Below, in pieces: positions 6,740 through 36,726 of a stretch of DNA of 53,299 nucleotides. Position 1 is the first letter of the stretch; the number at the start of each line of letters is the position of its first letter. A program made the position numbers and the translations under genes. The notes under the pieces were generated by a model that made no database searches, was not told the DNA's origin, and was given only the letters and a program-made list of their open reading frames with translations. Source of the stretch: Gammaproteobacteria bacterium (GTDB taxonomy: Bacteria > Pseudomonadota > Gammaproteobacteria > Steroidobacterales > GCA-2729495); the NCBI GenBank assembly GCA_014337915.1, contig QUBU01000020.1:1-53299 (forward strand), written 5' to 3'.

Positions 6740-6801
6740 GGAGATCCGGGGACAGTTTACTCATCTCCCGAGGGAGATGAGTAAACTGTCCCCGGATCTC
6801 C
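6740..6801. repeat. Perfect 30-bp inverted repeat, GGGGACAGTT-core element (copy 1)
   Basis: The left arm is 6740-6769 and the right arm 6772-6801, identical after reverse-complementing, with a two-base loop. The arms contain GGGGACAGTTTACTCA. The same core occurs in two other palindromes in this window (36621-36726 and 52245-52309). A short CGGATCTCC duplicate follows at 6805-6813. The element lies between two minus-strand genes and supplies the stop codon and last 14 codons of the YyaL-like gene. The RNA would fold into a very stable hairpin. REP/BIME-type identity is inferred. Confidence 0.9.
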
Positions 6802-8859
6802 GCCCGGATCTCCGGCCAGCGCCGTCCCGAGCGCCTCCAGCGTGTGGACCGGCGCATCGCAGGCCATGCCGCGGCAGACATAGGCCAGCGGGGCGTCGCC
6901 CGCGCGGCGCAGGGCCAGGGCGCCCGGCAGGCCGCTCGCGTCCGGCGGGATGCCGAACACCAGCCGCGCCGGTGCGTACACCGCCTGGGCCGCCCCCAGC
7001 CACTCCGCCAGCCGCGCACCCGCTGCACGCACCACCACGATCTGCGGCGGCGACAGGAACTCGTCCAGCGCGCCGATCATCGCCGCGTGACCGTGCGGGT
7101 AGGCGGACATCGCCGGCCAGGCCAGGCGCAGCGTCGCCTCCGCCGCGTCCAGGTAGCGTGTCTCGCCGAGCAGGTGGCCGAGGCGGCCGAGCGCCAGTGC
7201 AGCCACGGCATTTCCCGAGGGCAGCGCCTCGTCGGACAGCGGCTTGCCACGGTGGAGCAGGGCCTCGTGGTCGTGGGCGGTGAAGAAGAAGCCGCCCGTC
7301 GCGGCATCCGCGAAGCGCTCGAGCAACTCGTCGGCCAGCCAGCTGGCAAAGCCGAGATGGGCCGTATTCCAGCGTGCCTGCAGCAGCTCCAGCGTCGCGT
7401 CCAGCAGGAAGGCGTGGTCGTCGAGGTAGGCGGGGAAGCGCGCGCGGCCATCCTTCCAGGTGGCCTGCAGGCGGCCATCCACCACCATATGCGAGCGCAG
7501 GAAATCCAGGGCGGCGCTCGCCGCATCCACCAGCTCTGCCCGGCCGAGGATGCGCCCGGCGATGGCAAGCCCGCGGATCATGAGCGCGTTCCAGCTCGCC
7601 AGGATCTTCTCGTCGCGGCCCGGCCAGCTGCGGGCATTGCGCGCGGCGAGCAACCGCGCCCGGCCACTGTCGAGCAGGTGCTGCACCGTCGAGAGCGGCT
7701 GGCCCGTGGCCGCGGCGATGTCCTCCAGCGGCTGCCAGGCGCGCAGATGCCAGCGACCCTCGAAATTCGGCGCCCGGTCCAGGCCGAAGCGGGGGGCGAG
7801 GACCGCGTACTCCGCATCCGGCAGCAGCGCGCGCACCTCATCGGGCGTCCAGGCATAGAAGCGGCCTTCCCCGCCCTCGGAATCGGCATCGAGGCTGGAA
7901 AAGAATGCGCCCGCATCCGCGCGCATGTCGCGCAGCACCCAGTCCGCCGTCTCGTCGGCCACGCGACGGAAAAAGTCATCGGCACTCACCTGGTACAGCC
8001 AGGCGTAGAGCGCCAGCAGCGGGCCGTTGTCATAGAGCATCTTCTCGAAGTGCGGGATGCTCCAGTGGCGATCCACCGAGTAGCGGCAGAAGCCGCCGCC
8101 AAGCTGGTCATAGATACCGCCTTCGGCCATGCGCTTCAGCGTCAGCGCGCACATGTACAGCGCATGCACATCCGGTTCGCTGGCACCCGCCGTGTGCCAC
8201 CAGTGGCGCAGCAGCTGCTCGAGGCTGCTGGGGTGGGGGAACTTCGGCGCGTCGCCAAAGCCGCCGAACTCCGCATCGAACTGCCGGCCGAGCCCCGCGC
8301 GCAGCGCCGCCAGCGGCGCGGCGCCGAGCGGCCCGCGCTCCGGCGCATCCGCGGCCTCGATCGCGGCCAGCGCCTCGCGCAGCGCCGGGCCCTGCGCCTT
8401 CAGTTCCGGTGGCTTGCGCAGGTAGTACTCGGCCACGCGGCCGAGCACCTCGCTGAACGCCGGCATGCCATAACGCGCATCCTTCGGGAAATAGGTGCCG
8501 GCGAAGATCGGCACCAGCTCGCCCGGGGTGAGGAACATCGTCAGCGGCCAGCCGCCGCCCCGGCGCATCATCAGGTGATGCGCGGCCTGGTAGACGCGGT
8601 CGATGTCGGGGCGCTCCTCGCGATCCACCTTCACGTTCACGAACAGCTCGTTCATCAGCTGCGCCGTCGCCGGATCCTCGAAGGACTCGTGCGCCATCAC
8701 ATGGCACCAGTGGCAGGCCGAGTAGCCGATGGACAGCAGGATCGGCTTGTCCTCGGCGCGCGCCTTCGCCAGCGCCTCCTCGCCCCAGGGATACCAGTCC
8801 ACCGGGTTGCCGGCATGCTGCAGGAGGTAGGGGCTGGTTTCACGGGCGAGGTGGTTCAT
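6757..8859 (-). CDS. YyaL/DUF255 thioredoxin-domain protein (COG1331)
   Basis: The protein of about 700 residues begins [20 protein letters not shown], the family hallmark, with a thioredoxin-like CHWC motif at residues 49-52 in [18 protein letters not shown]. An (alpha/alpha)6 glycosidase-like region follows ([29 protein letters not shown]). The family is widespread (human SPATA20); its biochemical function is not settled. The ATG at 8859 is preferred over the in-frame GTG at 8880 because family homology starts there. The last 14 residues ([14 protein letters not shown]) and the stop codon are encoded by the 6740-6801 palindrome, so the native C-terminus was replaced or extended. The start overlaps the stop of the integrase remnant (ATGA). 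Confidence 0.93.
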
Positions 8860-9379
8860 GGCGGGATTGTAGTCCCGCACACCCGGTCAAGCGGACTTTT
8901 CACGCCCTTCGCACCCTTCTGCATCACATGCGTGTAGATCATCGTGGTCTTCACGTCCGAGTGGCCGAGCAGCTCCTGGACCGTGCGGATGTCGTAGCCG
9001 TCCTCGAGGAGATGCGTGGCGAAGCAGTGACGCAGCGTGTGGCAACTGGCCGGCTGGCGCGCGTGACGTTCTCCAGCCAGGGCAAGTCCACCGCGAGAAC
9101 GTGCCGGTAAAGGAAGAGGATCGCCTGGAGGGCTTGGTTCTGGGTGGACGCGCTGACCTTGCGATCCACCGCCAGATGAGTCAAGAATTGCTCGATGTCG
9201 GGTCCACCGAGGTCCCGCGGATGGCGCCGCCTATGGTAAGCAATGAAACGGCGAATCCACTGCAGGTAAGCCTGCTCCGTGCGGTAGGCCATGTGGCGCG
9301 TGCGCATCTTTTCGCGCACTACAACGAAGAGCCTGGCCGGCGTCGCCTCGTTGCCTATCTCCCCGGACATTTCGGCCAC
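8856..9379 (-). pseudogene. intI: Integron integrase (IntI-type tyrosine recombinase), internally deleted and frameshifted
   Basis: The 5' part, from about 9379 to 9050, encodes an integron-integrase N-terminus: REKMRTRHMAYRTEQAYLQW, then [20 protein letters not shown] and [14 protein letters not shown]. At about 9050 the sequence jumps, in a different frame, to the C-terminal end of the same family: [20 protein letters not shown], then [20 protein letters not shown] and GVKSPLD, stopping at 8856. Roughly 170 codons are missing against intact IntI proteins. They include the first catalytic arginine, the catalytic lysine region and the IntI-specific insertion, and the two parts are out of frame. 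The product cannot be a functional recombinase. The orientation, opposite to the cassettes, is the classical integron layout. Confidence 0.92.
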
Positions 9380-9485
9380 CTATCACTCGACGGTGGCAAG
9401 CAGATCAGAGGATTACAGCCAGCTCCAGCGTCATATCCGGCGCAATCGACGTGTTTCAGCTGGCCGTTTAGGCCATCTACATATA

Positions 9486-9492
9486 GTTAGGG
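9486..9492 (+). other. Putative attI core (GTTAGGG)
   Basis: This is the first GTTA-type core found upstream of the first cassette gene, between the integrase remnant and the start codon at 9502. In integrons the attI site lies here, beside intI. The seventh base is G rather than the consensus pyrimidine, and I see no paired partner, as expected for attI rather than attC. A weak promoter-like TACATA or TATAGT lies just upstream (9478-9487), but its -35 box is poor. Confidence 0.45.
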
Positions 9493-9501
9493 GTCTCATC
9501 T

Positions 9502-9750
9502 ATGTCACCGCGCGCTAGGCTCATGACCCTCTGGGTTACCGCATTGGTTGCCCCGCTCGCAACCATCTACGCGCTGCTGTCCGTTGTCTTCTACGCGTGG
9601 CTCAATGCGTCGGGCTCCTGGTCTGCTGAACGTGCTTCACTGTGGTCCGGTGGCGCGTTTGTGGCGTTTTGCGTCCTGGCTGTCGTGTCGGTGGCTGCGG
9701 TCGTCAAGCTCATCCGTCATTACAACAGGCAGCCGCGTTTATCAGACTGA
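9502..9750 (+). CDS. Cassette 1: small two-TM membrane protein
   Basis: The 82-residue protein has two hydrophobic helices: about 8-33 (TLWVTALVAPLATIYALLSV onward) and 48-68 (LWSGGAFVAFCVLAVVSVAA). A short basic tail follows (KLIRHYNRQPR). The start is the ATG at 9502, ten bases after the putative attI core; no strong ribosome site is visible. An attC hairpin begins 39 bases after the stop, so this is the first cassette of the array. I do not recognise a family. A membrane location is supported; the function is unknown. Confidence 0.7.
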   Translation: MSPRARLMTLWVTALVAPLATIYALLSVVFYAWLNASGSWSAERASLWSGGAFVAFCVLAVVSVAAVVKLIRHYNRQPRLSD

Positions 9751-9788
9751 AGTCACGTGACAAACCAAATGACGCATCGGCCGCTGAC

Positions 9789-9884
9789 CCCTAACCACGC
9801 GTTCCAGGGGAGCGCCGGCCAGCGGGGCTGGCCGGTACCCTCCTCGCTACGCTCGTCGGCGCCCCCTGAACACGGACGTTAGAC
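9789..9884 (+). other. attC site 1 (96 bp)
   Basis: The left part reads CCCTAAC then GTTCCAGGGGAGCGCCG. The right part, reverse-complemented, reads GTCTAAC then GTTCAGGGGGCGCCG. The arms pair apart from single unpaired bases in the left arm, the expected extrahelical-base pattern. The site ends in the R' core GTTAGAC at 9878-9884. Confidence 0.85.
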
Positions 9885-9907
9885 GGCGAGAAATACAAGG
9901 GAATGCG

Positions 9908-10465
9908 ATGCGAAGACTGATTTCGTGGAATGTCATCACCCTTGATGGCTACTTCGACGGTGTCAAGCACTGGGACTTGCCCTGGCACGAAAAGGTCTGG
10001 GGCGAGGAACTCGAGCGATTCTCCCTCGACCAGTTGGAGTCGGCGGACATGCTTGTGTTCGGACGCATGACCTATGAGGGCATGGCTGCCTATTGGACGA
10101 CGGCCCATGGGGCGATAGCCGACTACATGAACAGCCTCCCGAAGCTGGTCTGTTCCCGCACTCTTCAGGCGGCCACCTGGAACAATTCGACGTTGGTGAA
10201 GGACAACGTGGCAGAGGAGGTGGCCCGGCTGAAGCAAGAGGGCAGCGGAAACATGTTCGTTTTCGGAAGTGCCAACCTCTCAAGGACGCTGATGAACGAA
10301 AGACTGTTTGATGAGTATCGCATTGGCGTTGCACCGGTCATTCATGGCCGTGGCAGGCTTCTCTTCAGCGACGGACACAATGCACAAGGTCTTCAATTGC
10401 TCGAAGCACGCTCGCTTTCGACCGGCTGCGTCATCCTCCGTTATCTGGCTGAGAGGGTCGCGTGA
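9908..10465 (+). CDS. Cassette 2: dihydrofolate-reductase-fold (RibD C-terminal) family protein
   Basis: The 185-residue protein starts MRRLISWNVITLDGYFDG, the signature of RibD_C/DHFR-like proteins of the YwjB/YyaP kind. Cofactor-fold motifs follow (MLVFGRMTYEGMAAYW, NMFVFGSANLSRTLM, GRGRLLF). The start at 9908 has AAGGGA upstream and is 24 bases after attC 1; attC 2 follows the stop. The family binds NADPH, and its reductase substrates are mostly unknown. It is not a FolA/DfrA-type dihydrofolate reductase by sequence pattern, so trimethoprim resistance should not be assumed. Confidence 0.88.
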   Translation: MRRLISWNVITLDGYFDGVKHWDLPWHEKVWGEELERFSLDQLESADMLVFGRMTYEGMAAYWTTAHGAIADYMNSLPKLVCSRTLQAATWNNSTLVKDNVAEEVARLKQEGSGNMFVFGSANLSRTLMNERLFDEYRIGVAPVIHGRGRLLFSDGHNAQGLQLLEARSLSTGCVILRYLAERVA

Positions 10466-10487
10466 GCCCCATCTCTTCAGGCGCGCC

Positions 10488-10551
10488 GTCCAACAACCGG
10501 TTGCAGCGGACGGTCCGCTGCGCGGCCCGCCGCTGAACCGGGGCGTTAGCC
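10488..10551 (+). other. attC site 2 (64 bp)
   Basis: The R'' box GTCCAAC at 10488-10494 and the R' box GTTAGCC at 10545-10551 flank arms CCGGTTGCAGCGG and (reverse-complemented) CCGGTTCAGCGG, leaving one unpaired G. Apart from its outer boxes it is almost identical to attC 5. Confidence 0.88.
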
Positions 10552-10558
10552 GGCGCCC

Positions 10559-11071
10559 ATGCCATCTCGCATCGGCGACCCCATTCCCCGCAAACTCTTT
10601 CTTTCGCTGTACTTCTACGTGGCGGCCGGAGTCAGCGCTTTTAGTGCCATCACGGCGTGGCGAGGTGCACATGGGTGGGGGCTACCTCTCACCGCGGGCG
10701 GCATTGCGCTAGTTCTCTTGCTAGTGCCGAATGTGGGGCCACGCCAGCACGAGTTCGTGCAGGTCGATGATGAAGGTGTCGCCGTCAAGACCAAGGGTGG
10801 CGTAGAGCGAGTCAACTGGACGGATATTCAGAGAGTGCGCATCGTCACTACGAATGAAGGGCCATGGGTTGAGGACGTTTACTTTCTTTTCGAGGCTCAA
10901 GGCGGTCACGGGTGCGTGGTACCCCATGGAGCAGCAGTTCGCATCAAGCTACTAGAGGAGTTGCAGTCCCGGTTGCCTGGAGTTCAGGATGACAGAGTGA
11001 TAGAAGCTATGGGATGCACGGACAATGACAGCTTCACAATTTGGGAGAAGCCGGGTGAAAGCGCCGTCTAA
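10559..11071 (+). CDS. Cassette 3: two-TM protein with a soluble C-terminal domain, unknown function
   Basis: The 170-residue protein has two N-terminal membrane helices (LFLSLYFYVAAGVSAFSAIT, then LTAGGIALVLLLVPNV). A beta-rich soluble domain follows (HEFVQVDDEGVAVKTKGG, VNWTDIQRVRIVTTNEGPW), then a helix and tail (LLEELQSRLPG, VIEAMGCTDNDSFTIWEK). The domain resembles small PH-like membrane-associated modules seen in other cassette and contact-dependent-toxin neighbourhoods, but I cannot assign a family. The ATG at 10559 lies seven bases after the attC 2 core. The stop codon TAA is part of the next attC R'' box. Confidence 0.75.
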   Translation: MPSRIGDPIPRKLFLSLYFYVAAGVSAFSAITAWRGAHGWGLPLTAGGIALVLLLVPNVGPRQHEFVQVDDEGVAVKTKGGVERVNWTDIQRVRIVTTNEGPWVEDVYFLFEAQGGHGCVVPHGAAVRIKLLEELQSRLPGVQDDRVIEAMGCTDNDSFTIWEKPGESAV

Positions 11072-11153
11072 CAAATCGCGCGAGCGCGGCCGTGAGGGAT
11101 AAAGTGCCAGAAGGAGAGCCGAGCGCGCGGCGCGCTCAGCTCAAGCGTTAGAC
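11066..11153 (+). other. attC site 3 (88 bp)
   Basis: R'' is GTCTAAC (11066-11072) and R' is GTTAGAC (11147-11153), exact complements. The inner arms share GAGCGCG-type pairing but are less regular than in the other sites. The stop codon of the preceding cassette gene lies inside R''. Confidence 0.78.
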
Positions 11154-11170
11154 GCGAAGGACACAAGAGC

Positions 11171-11221
11171 ATGAGAACGGCCGAGCACACCACGTCGGGG
11201 GCGTCATGGCTGTTTGGCTAA
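11171..11221 (+). other. 16-codon leader ORF overlapping the mrr-like start
   Basis: A short frame (ATG at 11171, stop TAA at 11219-11221) begins eight bases after AAGGAC and reads across the ATG of the restriction gene at 11206 in another frame. Its position right after the attC core recalls the short leader ORFs that help translate integron cassettes lacking their own ribosome site. A coupling role is inferred. Confidence 0.35.
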
Positions 11222-12249
11222 TCCGCGCCGGCTCGCACGGCGAGTACGAGCTGAAGTTCATCCAGGAGAACCGGGTCTATGTGACATGGGATGACCTCGA
11301 CGTGAATCTCGGAAAGCTCGCTGAACGGAGCGACCTGACGAAAGCGATGACGCAGCGGTACGCCGATACAAAGCCGAAGGCGATCGCTAACTGGGTGAGC
11401 CAGGTCTGGCCATTCGCCCACGAGATCGCGAAGTCGGACTTAGTGGTTCTACCGCTCAAGTCCCAGCGCGCCATTCAGATCGGCGAGGTCACAGGGGACT
11501 ATCACTTTGAGCCCGACGGCCCGAACCCCTTCTTTCACTGGCGGCCAGTGAAGTGGATCGCGGAAGCCGTGCCGCGCGCACACTTCGGTAAGGACCTCCT
11601 CAACACGTTCGGGGCATTCATGACGATCTGTCGCGTTCAGCGGAACAACGCTGAAGCTCGGCTTGCGGCCATGCGCGCGACCGGCTGGAAGCCCGAGTCT
11701 TTAGCGGCAGTCACGAAGCCTCCTGTCGTCAGCCCTGACGAATCAGCCTCGGAGACGGATGACACCGACCTTGAAGAGGCCGCGCGAGACCAGATCGCAC
11801 AACTGATCATCGCTCGATTCAAAGGGCACGGTCTTACTCGCTTGGTGGAGGGGATTCTCAAGGCCCAGGGTTACATCACGTATCGCAGCGCCGAAGGGGC
11901 CGATGGTGGGGCGGATATCCTTGCTGGTGCGGGGCCACTGGGATTTGGTGTTCCTCGCCTGTGCGTGGAGGTGAAATCGGAGAGTTCTCCGATCGACCGG
12001 CCGACCGTGGACAAGCTGCTTGGTGCTGTGACCAAGTTCGGTGCGCAAGAGGGCCTGTTCGTTTCCTGGAGCGGTTTCAAGACGAACGTTCAAAAGGAAC
12101 TCGCCGCGAGTTTCTTCCGCGTCCGGCTCTGGACGCAGAAGGAATTGCTTGAGGCACTCTTCGCGCATTACGACAAGCTAGACGAGGACTTGAAGGCTGA
12201 GCTGCCGCTCAAGCGCATCTGGACGGTGGCCGCCCAGGAAGAAGAATGA
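11206..12249 (+). CDS. Cassette 4: Mrr-type restriction endonuclease with N-terminal recognition domain
   Basis: The 347-residue protein has an N-terminal module of about 150 residues (WLIRAGSHGEYE, IANWVSQVWPFAHEI, SDLVVLPLKSQRAIQIGEV). It resembles the EVE/PUA-like front domains of restriction proteins. An acidic linker (about 175-192) leads to an Mrr-type PD-(D/E)xK catalytic domain with D237 in GADGGADILAG and E255-V-K257 in CVEVKSES. Such proteins cut foreign, often modified, DNA as single-gene type IV-like defence. It stands alone between two attC sites and no methyltransferase is nearby, which fits a modification-dependent nuclease. The catalytic residues are intact, so it is probably functional. 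Confidence 0.88.
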   Translation: MAVWLIRAGSHGEYELKFIQENRVYVTWDDLDVNLGKLAERSDLTKAMTQRYADTKPKAIANWVSQVWPFAHEIAKSDLVVLPLKSQRAIQIGEVTGDYHFEPDGPNPFFHWRPVKWIAEAVPRAHFGKDLLNTFGAFMTICRVQRNNAEARLAAMRATGWKPESLAAVTKPPVVSPDESASETDDTDLEEAARDQIAQLIIARFKGHGLTRLVEGILKAQGYITYRSAEGADGGADILAGAGPLGFGVPRLCVEVKSESSPIDRPTVDKLLGAVTKFGAQEGLFVSWSGFKTNVQKELAASFFRVRLWTQKELLEALFAHYDKLDEDLKAELPLKRIWTVAAQEEE

Positions 12250-12271
12250 TCGCACGCCTGCGGGGCCTCGC

Positions 12272-12331
12272 GTCTAAAAAAAGCATGCAGCCGACGGCGC
12301 TGCGCGCCGCCGCTGATGCTTAGCGTTAGCT
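12272..12331 (+). other. attC site 4 (60 bp)
   Basis: The left arm is AAGCATGCAGCCGACGGCGC; the reverse-complemented right arm is AAGCATCAGCGGCGGCGC, leaving an unpaired G and C/A positions. R' is GTTAGCT (12325-12331). R'' reads GTCTAAA instead of the usual AAC ending, a possible decay mutation. Confidence 0.82.
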
Positions 12332-12372
12332 GACCACCCACTTACCCAACCAGACCAAAGGAAATCCTGCTC

Positions 12373-13797
12373 ATGAAGACAACACTACTAAAGGCCCTTG
12401 GGTGCGCGATGGCGGTGCTCGCGTCGTTCCCATTGGCGTCTGCCCGCGCTGCGGACGTCACGCTCGCCGAAGCCAACGCCATCGCCGAGGAAGGCTTCGT
12501 TTACGGCCTGCCGATCGTGATGATCTATCAGATCATGTACGACTACGCGGTGGACCGGAATTCCGGCCAGTTCAAGGCGCCGTTTAACCAGATCAAGAAC
12601 GAGTCGCAGGTGTTCACTTGGAAGGATACGGCGATCGTCACGCCCAATAGCGATACGCCGTACTCGTGGCTGTGGATGGACCTGCGCACCGAGCCGCTGG
12701 TGCTTTCGGTGCCGGCGGTGGCCAGGGATCGTTACTACTCGGTCCAACTCACCGACCTCAACTCGTTCAACTTTGGGTACATCGGCAGCCGTGCCACCGG
12801 CCGCGACGTCGGCAACTACTTGGTCGTCAGCCCGGACTGGAAGGGCGAAACGCCGGCAGGCATCAAGGCAGTGTTCCGCGCCTCCACCCAGTTCGCACTG
12901 GGGGTCTATCGCACCCAGCTCTTCAACCCAGACGACATGCCGAACGTGCTCAAGGTGCAGGCGGGCTACAAGGTCCGGCCGCTGTCTGCGTACCTCAAGC
13001 AGACGGCCCCGCCCGCTGCCGTGGCAATCGACTTCCCGAAGATCGACAAGGATCTGGCGAAGACCAACTTCTTCGAGTACCTGGGCTTCGCGCTGCAGTT
13101 CGCGCCGCCAGGTCCGGAGGAGGAAGCGATTCGCACCAGGCTCGCCAGTGTCGGCATCGGGCCCGGCAAACATTCCGACTTCAAGGGTCTCACCACCGAG
13201 CAGAAGGCCGCGATCGTGGCCGGAATGCAGGATGGCGAGGCGAAGATCAAGCAATACCTTCTGTCCGGGGTCAAGCGGGTCAATGGCTGGGGCGTTTTGT
13301 CCCCGTTCGGAGACCGCGCCTTCTACAACGGCGATTGGCTCAAGCGTGCCGCGGGTGCCGCTGCCGGCGTCCTGGGCAACGATGCAGTCGAGGCCATGTA
13401 CCCATTCACCAGAGACCTGGCGAACGGCGAAGCGCTTGACGGTAGCAAGCACGGCTACACGCTGACCTTTGCCAAGGGCGATCTGCCGCCTGTGAACGCG
13501 TTCTGGTCGATCACCATGTATGAAGGCAAGACCCAACTGTTGGTCGAGAACCCGATCAACCGCTACCTGGTCAACTCGCCGATGCTGCCGGGGATGAAAA
13601 AGAACGCGGACGGATCACTCACCCTCTACATCCAGAAGGATTCCCCGGGCAAGGACAAGGAGTCGAACTGGCTGCCCGCGCCCGATGGTCCGATCTACAT
13701 GGTGATGCGCCTGTATTGGCCAAAGACTGAGGCGCCGTCGATCCTGCCGGCTGGCAATGGCACGTGGCAGCCGCCGGCAGTTGTGAAGGTCAAGTGA
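12373..13797 (+). CDS. Cassette 5: exported DUF1254/DUF1214 protein
   Basis: The 474-residue protein has a clear signal peptide (MKTTLLKALGCAMAVLASFP, cleavage probably after SARA). The DUF1254 region follows (EEGFVYGLPIVMIYQIMYDY, VTPNSDTPYSWLWMDLRTEP, RDRYYSVQLTDLNSFNFGYI). The C-terminal DUF1214 region contains NAFWSITMYEG and NRYLVNSPM. The family is periplasmic, widespread and of unknown biochemical role. A good ribosome site (AAAGGAAA) precedes the ATG. At about 1.5 kb the cassette is long for an integron. A second member of the same family is cassette-borne at 17346-18962. Confidence 0.92.
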   Translation: MKTTLLKALGCAMAVLASFPLASARAADVTLAEANAIAEEGFVYGLPIVMIYQIMYDYAVDRNSGQFKAPFNQIKNESQVFTWKDTAIVTPNSDTPYSWLWMDLRTEPLVLSVPAVARDRYYSVQLTDLNSFNFGYIGSRATGRDVGNYLVVSPDWKGETPAGIKAVFRASTQFALGVYRTQLFNPDDMPNVLKVQAGYKVRPLSAYLKQTAPPAAVAIDFPKIDKDLAKTNFFEYLGFALQFAPPGPEEEAIRTRLASVGIGPGKHSDFKGLTTEQKAAIVAGMQDGEAKIKQYLLSGVKRVNGWGVLSPFGDRAFYNGDWLKRAAGAAAGVLGNDAVEAMYPFTRDLANGEALDGSKHGYTLTFAKGDLPPVNAFWSITMYEGKTQLLVENPINRYLVNSPMLPGMKKNADGSLTLYIQKDSPGKDKESNWLPAPDGPIYMVMRLYWPKTEAPSILPAGNGTWQPPAVVKVK

Positions 13798-13799
13798 CA

Positions 13800-13863
13800 A
13801 GCTAACAACCGGTTACAGCGGACGGTCCGCTGCGCGGCCCGCCGCTGAACCGGAGCGTTAGAA
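13800..13863 (+). other. attC site 5 (64 bp)
   Basis: The arms are CCGGTTACAGCGG and (reverse-complemented) CCGGTTCAGCGG, with one unpaired base. R' is GTTAGAA (13857-13863). Between the outer boxes it differs from attC 2 at only two positions, so the two cassettes probably share a source. Confidence 0.87.
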
Positions 13864-13870
13864 GTCCGGG

Positions 13871-13898
13871 TTGACCAGCCGCCGCGCGTAGGTACACT
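13871..13898 (+). promoter_or_regulatory. Promoter of the brnTA cassette (TTGACC-16-TACACT)
   Basis: A near-consensus sigma70 -35 box TTGACC (13871-13876) and -10 box TACACT (13893-13898) are separated by 16 bases, all inside the cassette just after the attC core. The expected start of transcription, about seven bases downstream, coincides with the toxin ATG at 13905 (another ATG is at 13901), so the mRNA would be leaderless. Confidence 0.7.
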
Positions 13899-13904
13899 GT
13901 ATGT

Positions 13905-14198
13905 ATGGCGGACCTGCGCTTCGAGTGGGTTCCACGAAAAGACCGTGCTAATCAGAAGAAGCACGGCATTTCCTTTACTGAAGCCAAGACCGTCTTCTTG
14001 GACGAGTTCGCCCGAATCATTGACGACCCGGAGAGCGATGAGGGCGAGGAGCGCTTTCTGATGCTCGGTATGAGCATTGGTCTCAGGGTTTTGGTCGTCT
14101 GTCATTGCGTTCGCGGGTCGGGTCAGGTGATTCGCATCATCTCGGCACGACGTGCGGATGCATCGGAGAGAAAGGAATACGCAGGGTATCTACCATGA
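13905..14198 (+). CDS. brnT: Cassette 6: BrnT-family toxin (type II TA)
   Basis: The 97-residue protein matches BrnT ribonuclease toxins: an N-terminal FEWVPRKDRANQKKHGISF block, the EER segment (DEGEERFLMLGMS) and the C-terminal RIISARRADASERKEY block that carries active-site residues. BrnT is a RelE-fold RNase that blocks translation. Its stop overlaps the antitoxin start (ATGA), so the pair is translationally coupled, in the usual brnT-brnA order. It has its own promoter within the cassette. No ribosome site is visible, which fits a leaderless message. All expected family motifs are present, so it is probably active. Confidence 0.92.
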   Translation: MADLRFEWVPRKDRANQKKHGISFTEAKTVFLDEFARIIDDPESDEGEERFLMLGMSIGLRVLVVCHCVRGSGQVIRIISARRADASERKEYAGYLP

Positions 14199-14407
14199 AG
14201 AAACGCTACGATTTTTCAAAGTCCCGACCGAATCCATATCTTCGCAAGGCGAAGAAGTCAGTAACGATTCGCCTAGACGTGGACACGGTCCAGTACTTCA
14301 AGGACCTTGCAGGAGGTACCGGTATTCCGTACCAGAATCTGATCAATCTCTATCTGCGTGATTGCGCGGCTGAGAAGAAGCGGCTCAAGATGGAGTGGGC
14401 GGCCTGA
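14195..14407 (+). CDS. brnA: Cassette 6: BrnA-family antitoxin
   Basis: The 70-residue ribbon-helix-helix protein contains KKSVTIRLDVDTVQYFKDLA followed by GIPYQNLINLYLRDCA, the DNA-binding and dimerisation core of BrnA/CopG-like antitoxins. It neutralises BrnT and normally represses the operon. The start ATG at 14195 overlaps the toxin stop by four bases. The only promoter found lies in front of brnT, where the complex is expected to bind. An attC left half follows two bases after the stop. Confidence 0.9.
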   Translation: MKKRYDFSKSRPNPYLRKAKKSVTIRLDVDTVQYFKDLAGGTGIPYQNLINLYLRDCAAEKKRLKMEWAA

Positions 14408-14408
14408 C

Positions 14409-14433
14409 TTCTAACTATGCGTTCGAGCACGCC
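14409..14433 (+). other. Half attC scar A (left half only)
   Basis: TTCTAAC followed by GCGTTCGAGCACGCC has the R'' box and the left arm with extra unpaired bases, as in complete sites here. No matching right arm or GTTA core follows before the next gene. The right half seems deleted, joining the BrnTA cassette to the next one. Confidence 0.55.
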
Positions 14434-14451
14434 GATTTTTCGTAGTGTCCG

Positions 14452-14877
14452 GTGCGGCGGCCGCTGCCTGCGGCATTTCTCGCGCCCGGCGCACCTCCAA
14501 GTGTCGCGGTCGCTTTTGGCGGCTATTTCCTCATCAGCGCTGGGTGCGGCAATGAAGTGCTCACTCAGATCGTTTCGCCGAACGGTTCGTATAAGGCTGT
14601 CGTGTTCCAGCGAGACTGCGGCGCCACCACCGGCTTCAGTACCCAAGTCTCAATCGTCAACAAGCACTCCGAACTTGGCAACTCCACAGGCAATGTCTTC
14701 GTTGCTGATACCGGCCACGGTTCTGCTCCGTCTGGGCCGGGTGGTGGTCCAGTCGTTGCGGTGCAATGGCGCACCCCTGACCATTTGGTCATCTCACATC
14801 ACGGGGCCGCACGGGTCTTCAAAGCCAGGTCGCACACCCATGGTATCGAGGTCCGCTATGAGTCGTTCGCCCAATAG
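14452..14877 (+). CDS. Cassette 7: probable small lipoprotein, unknown function
   Basis: This is a 141-residue frame from a GTG at 14452. The N-terminus is low quality, but a hydrophobic run ends in a lipobox-like ISAGC (Cys about 32). The downstream part is well formed: LTQIVSPNGSYKAVVFQRDC, TTGFSTQVSIVNKH, HLVISHHGAARVFK. The SPNGSYKAV-and-cysteine pattern recalls small exported proteins often found as integron cassettes, but I cannot name a family. Because the attC upstream lacks its right half, the true 5' end may have been lost and the start may be artificial. A complete attC follows the stop. Confidence 0.6.
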   Translation: MRRPLPAAFLAPGAPPSVAVAFGGYFLISAGCGNEVLTQIVSPNGSYKAVVFQRDCGATTGFSTQVSIVNKHSELGNSTGNVFVADTGHGSAPSGPGGGPVVAVQWRTPDHLVISHHGAARVFKARSHTHGIEVRYESFAQ

Positions 14878-14883
14878 GCCGGC

Positions 14884-14962
14884 GCCTAACCCTTCATTGC
14901 ACCCGACCTGCTACAGCGGGCGAAGCCCGCTGTAGCAGGTCGGGTGAACGCAATCGTTAAGT
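14884..14962 (+). other. attC site 7 (79 bp) with perfect 22-bp hairpin
   Basis: R'' is GCCTAAC (14884-14890) and R' is GTTAAGT (14956-14962). The inner part is a perfect inverted repeat, 14900-14921 with 14925-14946, around a GAA loop. It has fewer mismatches than the other sites, so it could also fold as an RNA hairpin and stop transcription. Confidence 0.83.
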
Positions 14963-14967
14963 GCTGT

Positions 14968-15909
14968 ATGGGCTCTGGTAACAAGCAAGCACTTTCAGAG
15001 TACGAAGCTCGAATGCACCGAGTGCTCGCACACATTGATGAGCACTTGGATCAGTCACTTGACCTGGACACATTGGCTAGTGTTGCTTGCTTTTCGTCGT
15101 TCCACTTTCATCGGCTGTTCTCTGCTTGGATGGGAGAACGGCTTGGTGAGTACATACGCAGACGTCGTGTCGAGCTCGGAGCCATGCGGCTCGCCGCACA
15201 ACCTCAAGTCAAAGTTCTGAACATTGCCTTGTCTGTAGGCTTTGGATCCGGCGAAGCGTTCACCCGCGCATTCAGGAATCGCTTCGGTTGTTCTCCATCA
15301 GATTGGCGTGCGGAGCAGGCGTCGCTCCGCAGTGCGAATAGCAATTCAGGTCAGGTGAATAGCAACCGTAGTCAGGCGCGACAAATGGCGTTCGGCGAGC
15401 ATGGTGACTCCCTGAAACGAAACAAGGATGCCAACATGCAAGTCACGTTAATTGATCGGAAACCGGCCTGCATAGCCTACCTTCGCCACCTTGGCCCCTA
15501 TGGTGAGCCTATCGCCAGATTCTGGCTGGAAACCTATGTACCGTGGGCAATCATGAACCGGCTTGGCGAAGATCACGCGAGGTACGGCATCAGCCACGAC
15601 GACCCAAGCATTACTGCGCCAGAGAAGTGCAGGTACGACGCTTGTGCAGAAGTCGATGTGGATTTTGTCGCAACAGGTGGCGCGAACAAGACTACAGTCC
15701 CTGGCGGCAAGTACGCGGTGCTTAAGTTCAAGGGCACGGCTGAACAAGTGGGCGAAGCTTGGTCGGCGCTACTGCGCGACTGGCTGCCGGCCAGTGGTTT
15801 CCAACTCGATGATCGCCCGTGTTTCGAATACTATCCGAAGGGCGCTGACTGTAATGGCAAGCCCGGAGAATTCGAGTGCGAGATATGTATACCCGTTGCT
15901 CCACTCTGA
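14968..15909 (+). CDS. Cassette 8: AraC-family regulator with GyrI-like ligand domain
   Basis: From the ATG at 14968, five bases after the attC core, the protein has 313 residues; an in-frame GTG at 14944 lies inside the attC and is less likely. An N-terminal AraC double helix-turn-helix (about 10-115) contains LDLDTLASVACFSSFHFHRL and ALSVGFGSGEAFTRAFRNRF. A linker leads to a C-terminal GyrI/SOUL-type small-molecule-binding domain (MQVTLIDRKPACIAYLRHLG ... VPGGKYAVLKFKGTAEQVGE). This order matches Rob/SoxS-like and BmrR-style regulators that sense organic compounds. No target gene is evident. Codon use is visibly less GC-rich than in the flanking chromosome. Confidence 0.92.
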   Translation: MGSGNKQALSEYEARMHRVLAHIDEHLDQSLDLDTLASVACFSSFHFHRLFSAWMGERLGEYIRRRRVELGAMRLAAQPQVKVLNIALSVGFGSGEAFTRAFRNRFGCSPSDWRAEQASLRSANSNSGQVNSNRSQARQMAFGEHGDSLKRNKDANMQVTLIDRKPACIAYLRHLGPYGEPIARFWLETYVPWAIMNRLGEDHARYGISHDDPSITAPEKCRYDACAEVDVDFVATGGANKTTVPGGKYAVLKFKGTAEQVGEAWSALLRDWLPASGFQLDDRPCFEYYPKGADCNGKPGEFECEICIPVAPL

Positions 15910-15927
15910 AGCAGTCGCAATCGGTTC

Positions 15928-16167
15928 TTGCACCTGCCAATTCACTCCAGCGGACGCCAGAACCGCTTCGTCGAGGCGCAGCGACTGTGGAAAGACCCCG
16001 ACCTGCTGGAAATTCCCGCGCGAACAGAAGACGAGCCGCGTTGGCTGGTCATCGGTCGGATCGACGCCAAACACTGGTCGGCGGTTGTCACCTCCCGGGG
16101 CGGCGCCATTCGAATCATTTCTGTCCGAAGATCTCGTGACGACGAGGTAGCTTGGTATGAAGGCTAA
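15928..16167 (+). pseudogene. BrnT-family toxin, N-terminally truncated
   Basis: The recognisable toxin sequence begins at about 15964 with RFVEAQRLW and continues DPDLLEIPARTEDEPRWLVI, GKHWSAV-type DAKHWSAVVT, and RIISVRRSRDDEVAWYEG up to the stop at 16167. The N-terminal block of about 25 residues with the conserved Trp-Asp...Asn...Lys-His-Gly pattern is absent; attC-like sequence takes its place. A TTG at 15928 could start an in-frame product, but its first dozen residues are not toxin-like. The downstream antitoxin gene overlaps by 11 bases and is intact. I infer a disabled toxin. Confidence 0.75.
15935..15958 (+). other. Half attC scar B (left half only)
   Basis: TGCCAAT then CACTCCAGCGGACGCC resembles the left arm of the other sites, with its unpaired C and A. 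No right arm or core follows; the sequence runs straight into the middle of a brnT reading frame. A deletion apparently removed the right half and the toxin's 5' end. Confidence 0.45.
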
Positions 16168-16426
16168 GAAGTTTGACCGTGACTTTGACGCTGGCAAGAG
16201 CGTGGCCGGTTCACTCGATCTTGCTGCCGCGCGCCGCCCCTTGCAGGAACAAAGACGGGTAAACGTCGACTTTCCCACCTGGATGATCGAGGGACTTGAC
16301 CGGGAAGCCGGCCGGCTGGGTGTGACACGGCAGTCGATCATCAAGGTCTGGCTTGCGGAGCGACTCCGGCACTCGGCTTCTAACCAGTCGATCCAGTCGG
16401 ACGCCCAGCAGGGTGGGCGCCGCTGA
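16157..16426 (+). CDS. Cassette 9: BrnA-type (ribbon-helix-helix) antitoxin
   Basis: The 89-residue protein opens MKAKKFDRDFDAGKSV and contains RRPLQEQRRVNVDFPTWMIE plus REAGRLGVTRQSIIKVWLAE, the ribbon-helix-helix core of BrnA/CopG-like antitoxins. It overlaps the truncated BrnT frame by 11 bases. The last ~17 residues (after LRHSAS) are encoded by the attC that follows and are probably adventitious. With its toxin decapitated it may persist as an orphan repressor, or protect against related toxins such as the intact BrnT at 13905; that is speculative. Confidence 0.85.
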   Translation: MKAKKFDRDFDAGKSVAGSLDLAAARRPLQEQRRVNVDFPTWMIEGLDREAGRLGVTRQSIIKVWLAERLRHSASNQSIQSDAQQGGRR

Positions 16427-16441
16427 TCTCAGTCGTTATGC
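16378..16441 (+). other. attC site 9 (64 bp)
   Basis: R'' is TTCTAAC (16378-16384) and R' is GTTATGC (16435-16441). The arms GATCCAGTCGGACGCCCA and (reverse-complemented) GATCAGCGGCGCCCA pair except for three unpaired left-arm bases. It overlaps the 3' end of the antitoxin frame. Confidence 0.87.
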
Positions 16442-16464
16442 CGCTTAAGTCCGGCCGCAGTGGC

Positions 16465-16493
16465 TTGACTGGTCGTATCCGAGCGGATACATT
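16465..16493 (+). promoter_or_regulatory. Promoter of the relE-like toxin-antitoxin cassette (TTGACT-17-TACATT)
   Basis: The -35 box TTGACT (16465-16470) and -10 box TACATT (16488-16493) are separated by the optimal 17 bases. Transcription would begin at about 16500, which is the first base of the toxin ATG, so a leaderless mRNA is predicted. The promoter lies wholly inside the cassette, 24 bases after the attC core. Confidence 0.72.
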
Positions 16494-16499
16494 TGCCGC

Positions 16500-16799
16500 A
16501 TGTTTCAGATCCGCCAGACAGAGGTCTTTTCCCGCTGGCTGGCAGAGTTGAAGGACCGAAAAGCAAAGGCGCGAATCCTGGTGCGCCTTGAGTCGGTCCG
16601 GCTCGGAAACTTGGGCGACTTCGCCAGCGTGGGCGGAGGGGTTCATGAGTTCCGGGTGCACATCGGGCCCGGCTATCGCATCTACTTCGCGCAGCAGCGC
16701 AAGGTTGTCGTCATTCTGCTTTGTGCTGGTGACAAATCGACGCAATCTCGCGACATCGTCCGGGCCAAGCGCCTGCTGCACGAAATTGAAGTGGAGTAA
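16500..16799 (+). CDS. Cassette 10: RelE/ParE-superfamily (HigB-like) toxin
   Basis: The 99-residue protein has the pattern of small Gp49/HigB-like addiction toxins: FSRWLAELKDRKAKARILVR, then VGGGVHEFRVHIGPGYRIYF and VVVILLCAGDKSTQSRDIVR. The family cleaves mRNA on the ribosome. The toxin precedes the antitoxin, as in higBA loci, and is followed by it after five bases. No ribosome site lies upstream, and the promoter would give a transcript starting at the ATG. The full family length is kept, so it is probably functional. Confidence 0.9.
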   Translation: MFQIRQTEVFSRWLAELKDRKAKARILVRLESVRLGNLGDFASVGGGVHEFRVHIGPGYRIYFAQQRKVVVILLCAGDKSTQSRDIVRAKRLLHEIEVE

Positions 16800-16804
16800 C
16801 TTAA

Positions 16805-17086
16805 GTGGTACGCGTTACAGAGTTTGATGCCAGCGCCTTTCTCGACGACGATGAGGTCGTTGCGGAATACCTGACGGCGGCGCTCGAGGACGAAGATCCT
16901 GACGTGTTCCTTGCGGCGGTCGGTAACGTTGCGAAAGCTCGTGGTATGAGCGCTATTGCCGAGCGGGCTGGTCTCGGGCGTGAGAGCCTGTACAAGGCGC
17001 TGACGCCGGGGGCCAAACCGCGATACGACACTGTGCTGAAGGTATTGCAGAGTCTCGGCGTCAAGCTAAGTGTTTCCGCGGCATAA
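16805..17086 (+). CDS. Cassette 10: HigA-like antidote (XRE-type antitoxin)
   Basis: The 93-residue protein starts at a GTG (16805). Its N-terminal segment (FDASAFLDDDEVVAEYLTAA) and a helix-turn-helix (GMSAIAERAGLGRESLYKAL) match the addiction-module antidote proteins that pair with HigB/Gp49-like toxins. It should neutralise the toxin at 16500 and repress the cassette promoter. The stop codon TAA forms part of the next attC R'' box, so the gene fills the cassette to its last base. Confidence 0.9.
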   Translation: MVRVTEFDASAFLDDDEVVAEYLTAALEDEDPDVFLAAVGNVAKARGMSAIAERAGLGRESLYKALTPGAKPRYDTVLKVLQSLGVKLSVSAA

Positions 17087-17183
17087 CCAGTCGCTCCACC
17101 GGTCGCATGACGCGTCTGTCACGCGGCTTGCCTACGCAAGCCGCACGCCAGCGGCAATGCGCCGGTGAGCTCAATCGTTATGC
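17081..17183 (+). other. attC site 10 (103 bp)
   Basis: R'' is GCATAAC (17081-17087) and R' is GTTATGC (17177-17183), exact complements. The arms GCTCCACCGGTCGCAT and (reverse-complemented) GCTCACCGGCGCAT pair except for single unpaired C and T. The central loop holds a second small hairpin (GCGGCTTG ... CAAGCCGC). Confidence 0.88.
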
Positions 17184-17345
17184 CGCGATACCCGCACCCG
17201 ATCATTTCTACCAGAGCGCACGTACTTCGTGATGGAACTTGGCCTCAATTTCGCCAGACAGATGGCGGTGGCCGACAAGCGAAATCTGACATTTCACAGT
17301 GCTTCAGCGTCAAACCGATCTACTGAAGAACAGGGAGAAGACTCG

Positions 17346-18962
17346 ATGAAGCAACCGGTCACACCTTTGGCAGTCGTACTGGCCAGCGCCTTGCTGGCAG
17401 TGGCTAGCCTGGCGGAGGCGCAGACAGCTGCGGCGATCTCACCCTCGATCAGTACGGCCGCTCAGGTCGATAGTCGCATCGGCACGCTCGAGTTCAGGGA
17501 CGGCGCGCCGAGCCAGGCCACGCTGGACAAGGTCTACGACAACCTCGACTACACGCACGCCTTCGAGGCATTCGTGAACACGATGCAGGGCGTGAACGCG
17601 GCCGCCATCCGCAAGGGCTTTCTCGACATTGGCGTGAAGGACAACGAGATCCTCGTGTTCTCCCGCCTGATGGATGCGAAGTCGCTGTTCCTGACGGCGA
17701 ATGCGGACACGGTGTACTTCATCGGCATCCTCGACCTGACGAAGGGGCCGATGGTGCTCGAAACGCCGCCCAACGCACTCGGCACGCTGGACGACATGTG
17801 GTGGCGCTGGGTGATCGATTTCGGCGCGCCTGGCCCGGACCGGGGCGCGGGGGGCAAGTACCTGATCCTGCCGCCCGGCTACGATGGTCCGGTACCCGAG
17901 GGCGGGTTCTACGTCGCCCGGTCGAGGACGACCCGCGTCCTGATCCTGGGGCGCATGTTCATGGAGAACGACAACCCGGCGCCGACGGTGGAGGCGATCC
18001 GGAAGTTCACCAGGATCTACCCATACGAGGTCGGCGGCTTGGGCACCAGCATCGCCGGGTTCCTCAGCGGCAAGGCACGGCTCGGCCGGATCACGCCGCC
18101 GCCGGCGACGGTGTTCCACGAAGGCAGTGGCAAGGTGATGAACACCATCCCGCCCAACGATTTCAGCTACTACGAGATGTTGAACGAGGTGGTGCAGCAG
18201 GAGCCGGCCACCGCGATCGACCCTGAGCTGATGGGCCCGATCGCCGCGATCGGCATCGTCAAGGGCAAGCCGTTCGCGCCCGACGCGCGCATGCGCAAGA
18301 TCCTCACCGACGCGCTCGCTACGGGCAATGCGACCTCGCGCAGCCTGCTCATGGCCCCGCGCGCGGCCGACTGGTACTACTACCCCGGCTCGGCGTGGTC
18401 GAACTTCCTGTTCGTCAGCGGTCACGAGTTCGAGACGCCAATCCCGATGATCACGCAGGAGGGCGTCAAGCCGTTCCCGTCCACCGGGTACCGCACGCTC
18501 GACGCGCGCACGGCGTTCTTCTACGGCATCACCGGCATCACGCCCGCCATGGCGATGCGGCTGCCGGGGATCGGCTCCCAGTACCTGCTGGCGTTCCAGG
18601 ACGCGAACAAACAGTTCTTCGACGGCTCGAAGACCTACAAGGTAACGCTGCCCAAAGGCATTCCCGAGGCGAAGTTCTGGTCCCTGACGCTCTACGACAA
18701 CCAGACGCGTTCGATGCTGGACACACCGCAGCGCTATCCGCGCGCCGGCAGTCAGAAGTACCCGTCGCCCGCCGCCGAGGCGGACGCGTCAGGCGTCACG
18801 ACGGTGTACTTCGGCCCGAAGCAGCCCGACGGCGTCAAGCGCGGCAACTGGATCCAGACGGTGCCCGGCAAGGGCTGGTTCGTGATTCTGCGGCTCTACA
18901 GCCCGCTCGAGCCGTTCTTCGACAAGAGCTGGCGGCCGGGCGAGATCGAGCTGGTTCGTTGA
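17346..18962 (+). CDS. Cassette 11: second exported DUF1254/DUF1214 protein
   Basis: The 538-residue protein begins at the ATG at 17346, nine bases after AGGGAG, with a signal peptide (MKQPVTPLAVVLASALLAVA, cleavage near SLAEAQ); the frame is open upstream to 17229, but that part lacks a signal. DUF1254-type motifs include LFLTANADTVYFIGILDLTK and GGKYLILPPGYDGPVPEGGF. The DUF1214-type C-terminus has KFWSLTLYDNQTRSMLDTPQ and GKGWFVILRLYSPLEPF. It is clearly a different branch from the cassette 5 protein. The function is unknown. Codon use is GC-rich, like the chromosome. Only a half attC-like box follows. Confidence 0.9.
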   Translation: MKQPVTPLAVVLASALLAVASLAEAQTAAAISPSISTAAQVDSRIGTLEFRDGAPSQATLDKVYDNLDYTHAFEAFVNTMQGVNAAAIRKGFLDIGVKDNEILVFSRLMDAKSLFLTANADTVYFIGILDLTKGPMVLETPPNALGTLDDMWWRWVIDFGAPGPDRGAGGKYLILPPGYDGPVPEGGFYVARSRTTRVLILGRMFMENDNPAPTVEAIRKFTRIYPYEVGGLGTSIAGFLSGKARLGRITPPPATVFHEGSGKVMNTIPPNDFSYYEMLNEVVQQEPATAIDPELMGPIAAIGIVKGKPFAPDARMRKILTDALATGNATSRSLLMAPRAADWYYYPGSAWSNFLFVSGHEFETPIPMITQEGVKPFPSTGYRTLDARTAFFYGITGITPAMAMRLPGIGSQYLLAFQDANKQFFDGSKTYKVTLPKGIPEAKFWSLTLYDNQTRSMLDTPQRYPRAGSQKYPSPAAEADASGVTTVYFGPKQPDGVKRGNWIQTVPGKGWFVILRLYSPLEPFFDKSWRPGEIELVR

Positions 18963-36620: not shown

Positions 36621-36726
36621 ATTAAGGTGAATTAAGGGGACAGTTTACTCAACTCTGGAAAGTAGCCGCCTGAGAACTCGGTCAATCGTCAGAGTTGAGT
36701 AAACTGTCCCCTTAATTCACCTTAAT
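36621..36726. repeat. Perfect 37-bp inverted repeat, GGGGACAGTT-core element (copy 2)
   Basis: The left arm 36621-36657 and right arm 36690-36726 are perfect reverse complements around a 32-base loop. The arms contain GGGGACAGTTTACTCAACTC. The sequence GTGAATTAAG occurs twice in tandem at the left edge (36617-36626, 36628-36637). The element lies between rsmA and apaG, and the rsmA stop codon falls inside its outer end. Confidence 0.9.

Follow-up and report, generated by a model that had tools for sequence, protein, structure and literature searches.

The window analysed here, which comprises the whole of contig G000:C18 (53,299 bp) from a draft genome of 2.72 Mb in 35 contigs with 96.4% completeness, very probably carries a chromosomal integron in which a single recent deletion has disabled the integrase gene in situ. 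We propose that a 493-bp segment encoding box I of the catalytic centre and the middle part specific to IntI was lost through joining with almost no homology, and that the resulting frame shift would leave at most a 142-residue N-terminal fragment without a catalytic site. Having no integrase, the array would be frozen in cis; its cassettes would persist as ordinary chromosomal genes, would decay through ordinary mutation (as two fused junctions may illustrate) and could move again only if an integrase were supplied externally. The location of the integron is marked by a minus-strand open reading frame at 6757-8862, which, following the earlier note on this DNA, we assume to be yyaL-like. Its ATG start at 8862 is common to the relatives G024 and G027, and the gene is detected in all ten genomes of the genus. 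Among the 80 loci retained from a wider search with the yyaL-like protein, from which records very close to the window's genome may be missing, none exceeds 60% identity in its best segment. Inverted paired copies of GGGGACAGTTTACT lie at 6748-6793 and 36636-36711; exact copies number 34 forward and 42 reverse genome-wide (0 and 0 for control patterns), the pairs are mostly opposed, and the repeats presumably resemble the REP-type family. Neither Rfam at gathering thresholds nor ARAGORN, searched for tRNA, returned a match in the window.

What is left of intI lies on the minus strand in two parts. The N-terminal part (9056-9379) opens with a GTG start and encodes the core-binding domain (TIGR02249, 3.1e-33; PF13495, 4.7e-31), residues 20-114 of its open reading frame, which runs from 9379 to 8951, corresponding to TIGR02249 positions 4-98. 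The C-terminal part (8883-9056) is read in another frame, holds box II and the tyrosine region, and corresponds to positions 257-315 of the same profile (2.3e-33), with a further match to PF00589. Profile search of the genome itself delimits the parts as 9322-9038 (positions 4-98) and 9065-8880 (positions 254-315). The two readings share base 9056, their meeting point, close to the position of about 9050 at which the earlier note had placed the joint. That note had described the parts as N- and C-terminal fragments of one IntI in different frames, and it is borne out by the ordered profile matches and by the same single gene being matched in relatives; a chance joining of unrelated recombinases is ruled out, since both parts fit that one gene in the correct order. 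Amino acid identity to G024 and G027 is 98-100% in the C-terminal part and 85-88% in the N-terminal part. TIGR02249 positions of about 99-253 are absent, such that the window lacks the full-length IntI of a complete integron. Applying general knowledge of the family to the alignment, we take the missing stretch to comprise catalytic box I together with the segment peculiar to IntI.

Comparison with intact genes at the same locus allows the loss to be mapped. An uninterrupted intI adjoins the same yyaL-like gene in five of the nine other species of the genus (G021, G022, G024, G025 and G027), about 0.7 kb separating the two genes in G022, which supplies the neighbouring intact copies that the earlier note had suggested looking for. 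When the fragments are aligned to these intact genes, the deletion junction falls at 9056-9057, with 493 bp absent relative to the two closest, G024 and G027. In blastn, alignment of the window to the G027 locus runs up to base 285 and resumes from 781, and to the G024 locus up to 553 and again from 1049. Between the same end points, G024 and G027 have 87, 164 and 58 codons (927 bp) and the window has 434 bp, and because the 493-bp difference is not divisible by three, the frame shifts. Loss of the catalytic centre together with a frameshift, as first read from the letters, thus finds its measure in these 493 bp and in the absent profile positions; the sequence of the window's species before the deletion is inferred here from the genes of other species.

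How the break arose can be judged from the flanks. The earlier note had attributed it to a deletion between short CCGGCCA-like repeats, and such letters do occur at the joint. Intact relatives carry the same stretch, however, in the right flank of the uninterrupted gene (exactly in G027, as one-base variants in G021, G024 and G025, and as a two-base variant in G022), where the sequence reads CAGCCGGCCAG in G027 and departs from this at one or two bases in the four other aligned genes. The stretch is therefore normal flank and not a repeat. The left flank of the relatives runs on at the break into unrelated bases with no copy of CCGGCCA, and left and right flanks have at most one or two bases in common at the junction. 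Although the parent sequence can be judged only through other species, which leaves some room for a repeat-mediated event, we consider this route very unlikely; as the flanks share so few bases, the simplest account is a joining that needed little or no homology. The same junction bears on whether the deletion could be an assembly or consensus error, real cells retaining a complete intI. This is a draft sequence in 35 contigs, judged here from its assembled form, but the junction is internal to a contig of 53 kb, alignment to relatives is smooth on either side, the break offers no repeat to mislead an assembler, and a search of the other contigs did not recover the missing piece. We accordingly hold an artefact to be highly improbable, and favour a genuine deletion.

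The pattern of substitution suggests that the deletion is young. Against G027, the C-terminal part shows 15 synonymous and 0 non-synonymous differences, and the N-terminal part 23.5 and 9.5, respectively, pairs of intact genes being alike in both. A three-point estimate places omega at 0.11 on the window's own branch, compared with 0.12 on the G024 branch and 0.02 on the G027 branch, and neutral evolution after the break would fill no more than about 12-13% of the branch leading to the window, a rough 95% bound from uncorrected counts. As constraint on each relic part equals that on intact copies, the break appears to be recent relative to the window's branch, provided that evolution since then has been neutral. 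Low omega on this branch (about 0.11), together with an intact start and N-terminal domain, might alternatively be taken to mean that the 142-residue fragment is kept as a DNA-binding protein, for instance one that sits on att sites and blocks recombination, so that the integron would itself have locked a completed cassette array. We find this scarcely credible: omega is equally low in the C-terminal part, to which no role as a translated product falls here, such that the constraint dates from before the deletion; the fragment ends in a frame-shifted tail; and among 40 family genomes no relative was found to share it.

On the other side of the integrase gene, the interval between intI and attI (9380-9492, plus strand) ends in a predicted attI core, GTTAGGG, at 9486-9492. 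The window from 9491 to 9060 is 83% identical to G024, and similarity stops at this core, as expected at the point of cassette insertion. No LexA-like box of the form CTG-N10-CAG occurs in 9301-9520. To the right of attI lie about ten cassette-like units with eight attC sites, two unit junctions being without a complete attC. A strict scan of 9380-17300 finds four sites, whereas 100 dinucleotide-shuffled sequences give 0.02 on average and never more than one; its settings were fixed once that region had already been scanned with others, some of which gave fewer sites. A loose scan finds seven of the eight sites, its nine matches in the window including one duplicate and one likely chance match (23626), and is not significant alone, given that 20 block shuffles of the 17.2-kb stretch produced 1-6 matches each. 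Folding of the bottom strand gives z-scores from -1.5 to -10.1, with seven of the eight sites at -2.1 or lower.

All units and sites of the array are on the plus strand. The first cassette gene (9502-9750; 82 residues, no Pfam match) is followed by attC 1 (9789-9884; strict scan, z -3.1), and the second, encoding a RibD_C protein (9908-10465; PF01872, 3.6e-18), by attC 2 (10488-10551; loose scan, z -4.4), which is 97% identical over 58 nt to attC 5. Cassette 3 (10559-11071) has a weak bPH_6 match under the family cut-off and precedes attC 3 (11066-11153), a site of the strict scan with a z of -1.5, for which 18 of 200 shuffles fold equally well. A gene with an Mrr-type endonuclease domain (cassette 4, 11206-12249; PF04471, 6.2e-22) leads to attC 4 (12272-12331; loose scan only, z -2.8), and a gene with a Pfam match to DUF1254/DUF1214 (cassette 5, 12373-13797) to attC 5 (13800-13863; loose scan, z -7.0). 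After the BrnT/BrnA pair of cassette 6 (13905-14407; PF04365, 6.9e-27; PF14384, 2.3e-9), only half an attC can be read by eye, to about 14430, and the junction near 14408-14450 is fused. Cassette-like unit 7 (14452-14877), with a weak DUF5412 match under the cut-off, is followed by attC 6 (14884-14962; strict scan, z -10.1), and unit 8 (14944-15909) encodes an AraC/GyrI-like regulator with a Cass2 match (PF06445, 5e-33; PF14526, 6e-19). Between units 8 and 9 (15910-15967) no attC is seen, this junction also being fused. Unit 9 (15967-16426) combines a BrnT match (PF04365, 1.8e-16), which starts only at position 17 of the 77 in the profile, with a second small open reading frame lacking a Pfam match; attC 7 (16378-16441; z -2.1) was recognised by eye, both scans having missed it. 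Cassette 10 (16500-17086) holds a Gp49-like and HI1420-type antidote pair (PF05973, 7.8e-6; PF21716, 3e-38), and attC 8 (17081-17183; strict scan, z -6.0) is the last clear site. The array thus contains two BrnT-type toxin matches, at 13905-14407 and 15967-16426. DUF1254/DUF1214 genes also occur twice, one being the clear cassette at 12373-13797 and the other lying just beyond the last clear attC, at 17229-18962. With four strict sites against 0.02 in shuffles, and eight sites overall, the window retains the cassette array with attC sites of a complete integron. The initial description of cassettes and attC sites as mostly intact holds, with the qualification that the junctions near 14408-14450 and 15910-15967 are fused.

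Whether another enzyme might serve this array was addressed within the same assembly. The profile search lists the two relic parts together with four stretches of two further recombinase genes, which are taken for XerC and XerD; it reveals no second IntI in this 96.4% complete assembly. The missing 164 residues, with G027 as query, find their best match in the assembly at an E-value of 0.08, inside one XerC/XerD-type gene. No gene recovered from the assembly could stand in for the integrase, and completeness of 96.4% means that an integrase acting in trans could be missing from it. That the array can no longer be shuffled in cis would follow, no integrase remaining in cis and no other IntI having been found in the assembly. 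It is possible that the attC sites are open to an integrase supplied in trans.

Other broken copies were found in the family, which was searched at the TIGR02249 cut-off in 40 genomes, the window's own (G000) counted in. A match above the cut-off is present in 20 of the 40, and in seven of the nine other genomes of the genus. The window's genome and G014 have separate N- and C-terminal IntI parts only, with no whole match, and in the other 18 genomes the best E-values among the matches listed, 1.0e-21 to 3.7e-24, are at an XerC/XerD-like level. Although above the cut-off, the G030 gene is split by a one-base frame change near box II, the strict scan finding four attC sites in the 19.9 kb examined there, and the IntI match of G010 begins only after the first 13 profile positions, with a stop lying upstream. 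G014, of another genus of the family, shows an independent, in-frame loss within intI (G014:C27:50942-51490; parts 2-143 and 272-313), and the strict scan finds no attC in the adjoining 19.9 kb. As G014 and G030 are draft genomes, sequencing error is possible in both. In all, intI is broken in at least three of the 22 family genomes with IntI sequence, each break being different. Beside uninterrupted intI, the same strict scan finds 2 sites in G021 and 10 in G020.

The relic and its surroundings seem to differ in their nearest relatives. We used gyrB as the species marker, because rpoB was not found in the window's own assembly and in four of ten genomes recA is either incomplete or missing. 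The window pairs with G021 in the gyrB tree (100/99), and by path its yyaL-like gene falls nearest to G021 and G025, though not with good support. By contrast, the intI relic together with the attI side (8883-9491) looks nearest G027 and G024, the N-terminal part of intI grouping with these at 87/87 when G021 is left out (11 rows) and at 59/37 when it is included (8 rows). As an AU test does not reject the alternative placement (p 0.115), these sequences give only a hint that the platform may have been exchanged in place between species.

Broken integrase genes with surviving arrays are already well described, and this is an ordinary case. According to a 2008 survey, nearly one third of intI genes are pseudogenes through stops, frameshifts or major indels (PMC2426708). 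A frameshift, a stop or a size change of at least 20% defines such pseudogenes in that survey, and the window gene has lost 493 bp and shifted frame. The pseudo-integrons described there likewise concern a resident intI, the sole integrase of its genome, inactivated by frameshift and major deletion, and the present case shows no substantial difference, beyond the mapping of the break on sister genes from the same position and an age that is bounded. In a 2025 study, Xanthomonas intI was repeatedly inactivated and arrays were more stable afterwards (PMC12444791). Those integrons at the ilvD locus share with ours a fixed chromosomal position, repeated truncation or deletion of intI and arrays that stay, but here the host lineage is different and the neighbour is yyaL-like instead of ilvD. 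The same source describes the CALIN, an attC cluster without an integron-integrase (PMC12444791), and the window resembles these in having several attC sites, more than the two required, and no working integrase, but differs in that an intI relic and the attI side are still present. Experimental evolution found a working class 1 integrase to be costly and to be lost by frameshift (PMC3510236). Against this background, the window contributes a well-resolved example of intI loss with cassettes retained, in which sister species have the gene uninterrupted at this position and the age of the break is bounded; it adds to the evidence that such losses are frequent and recent, and leaves the known picture unchanged.
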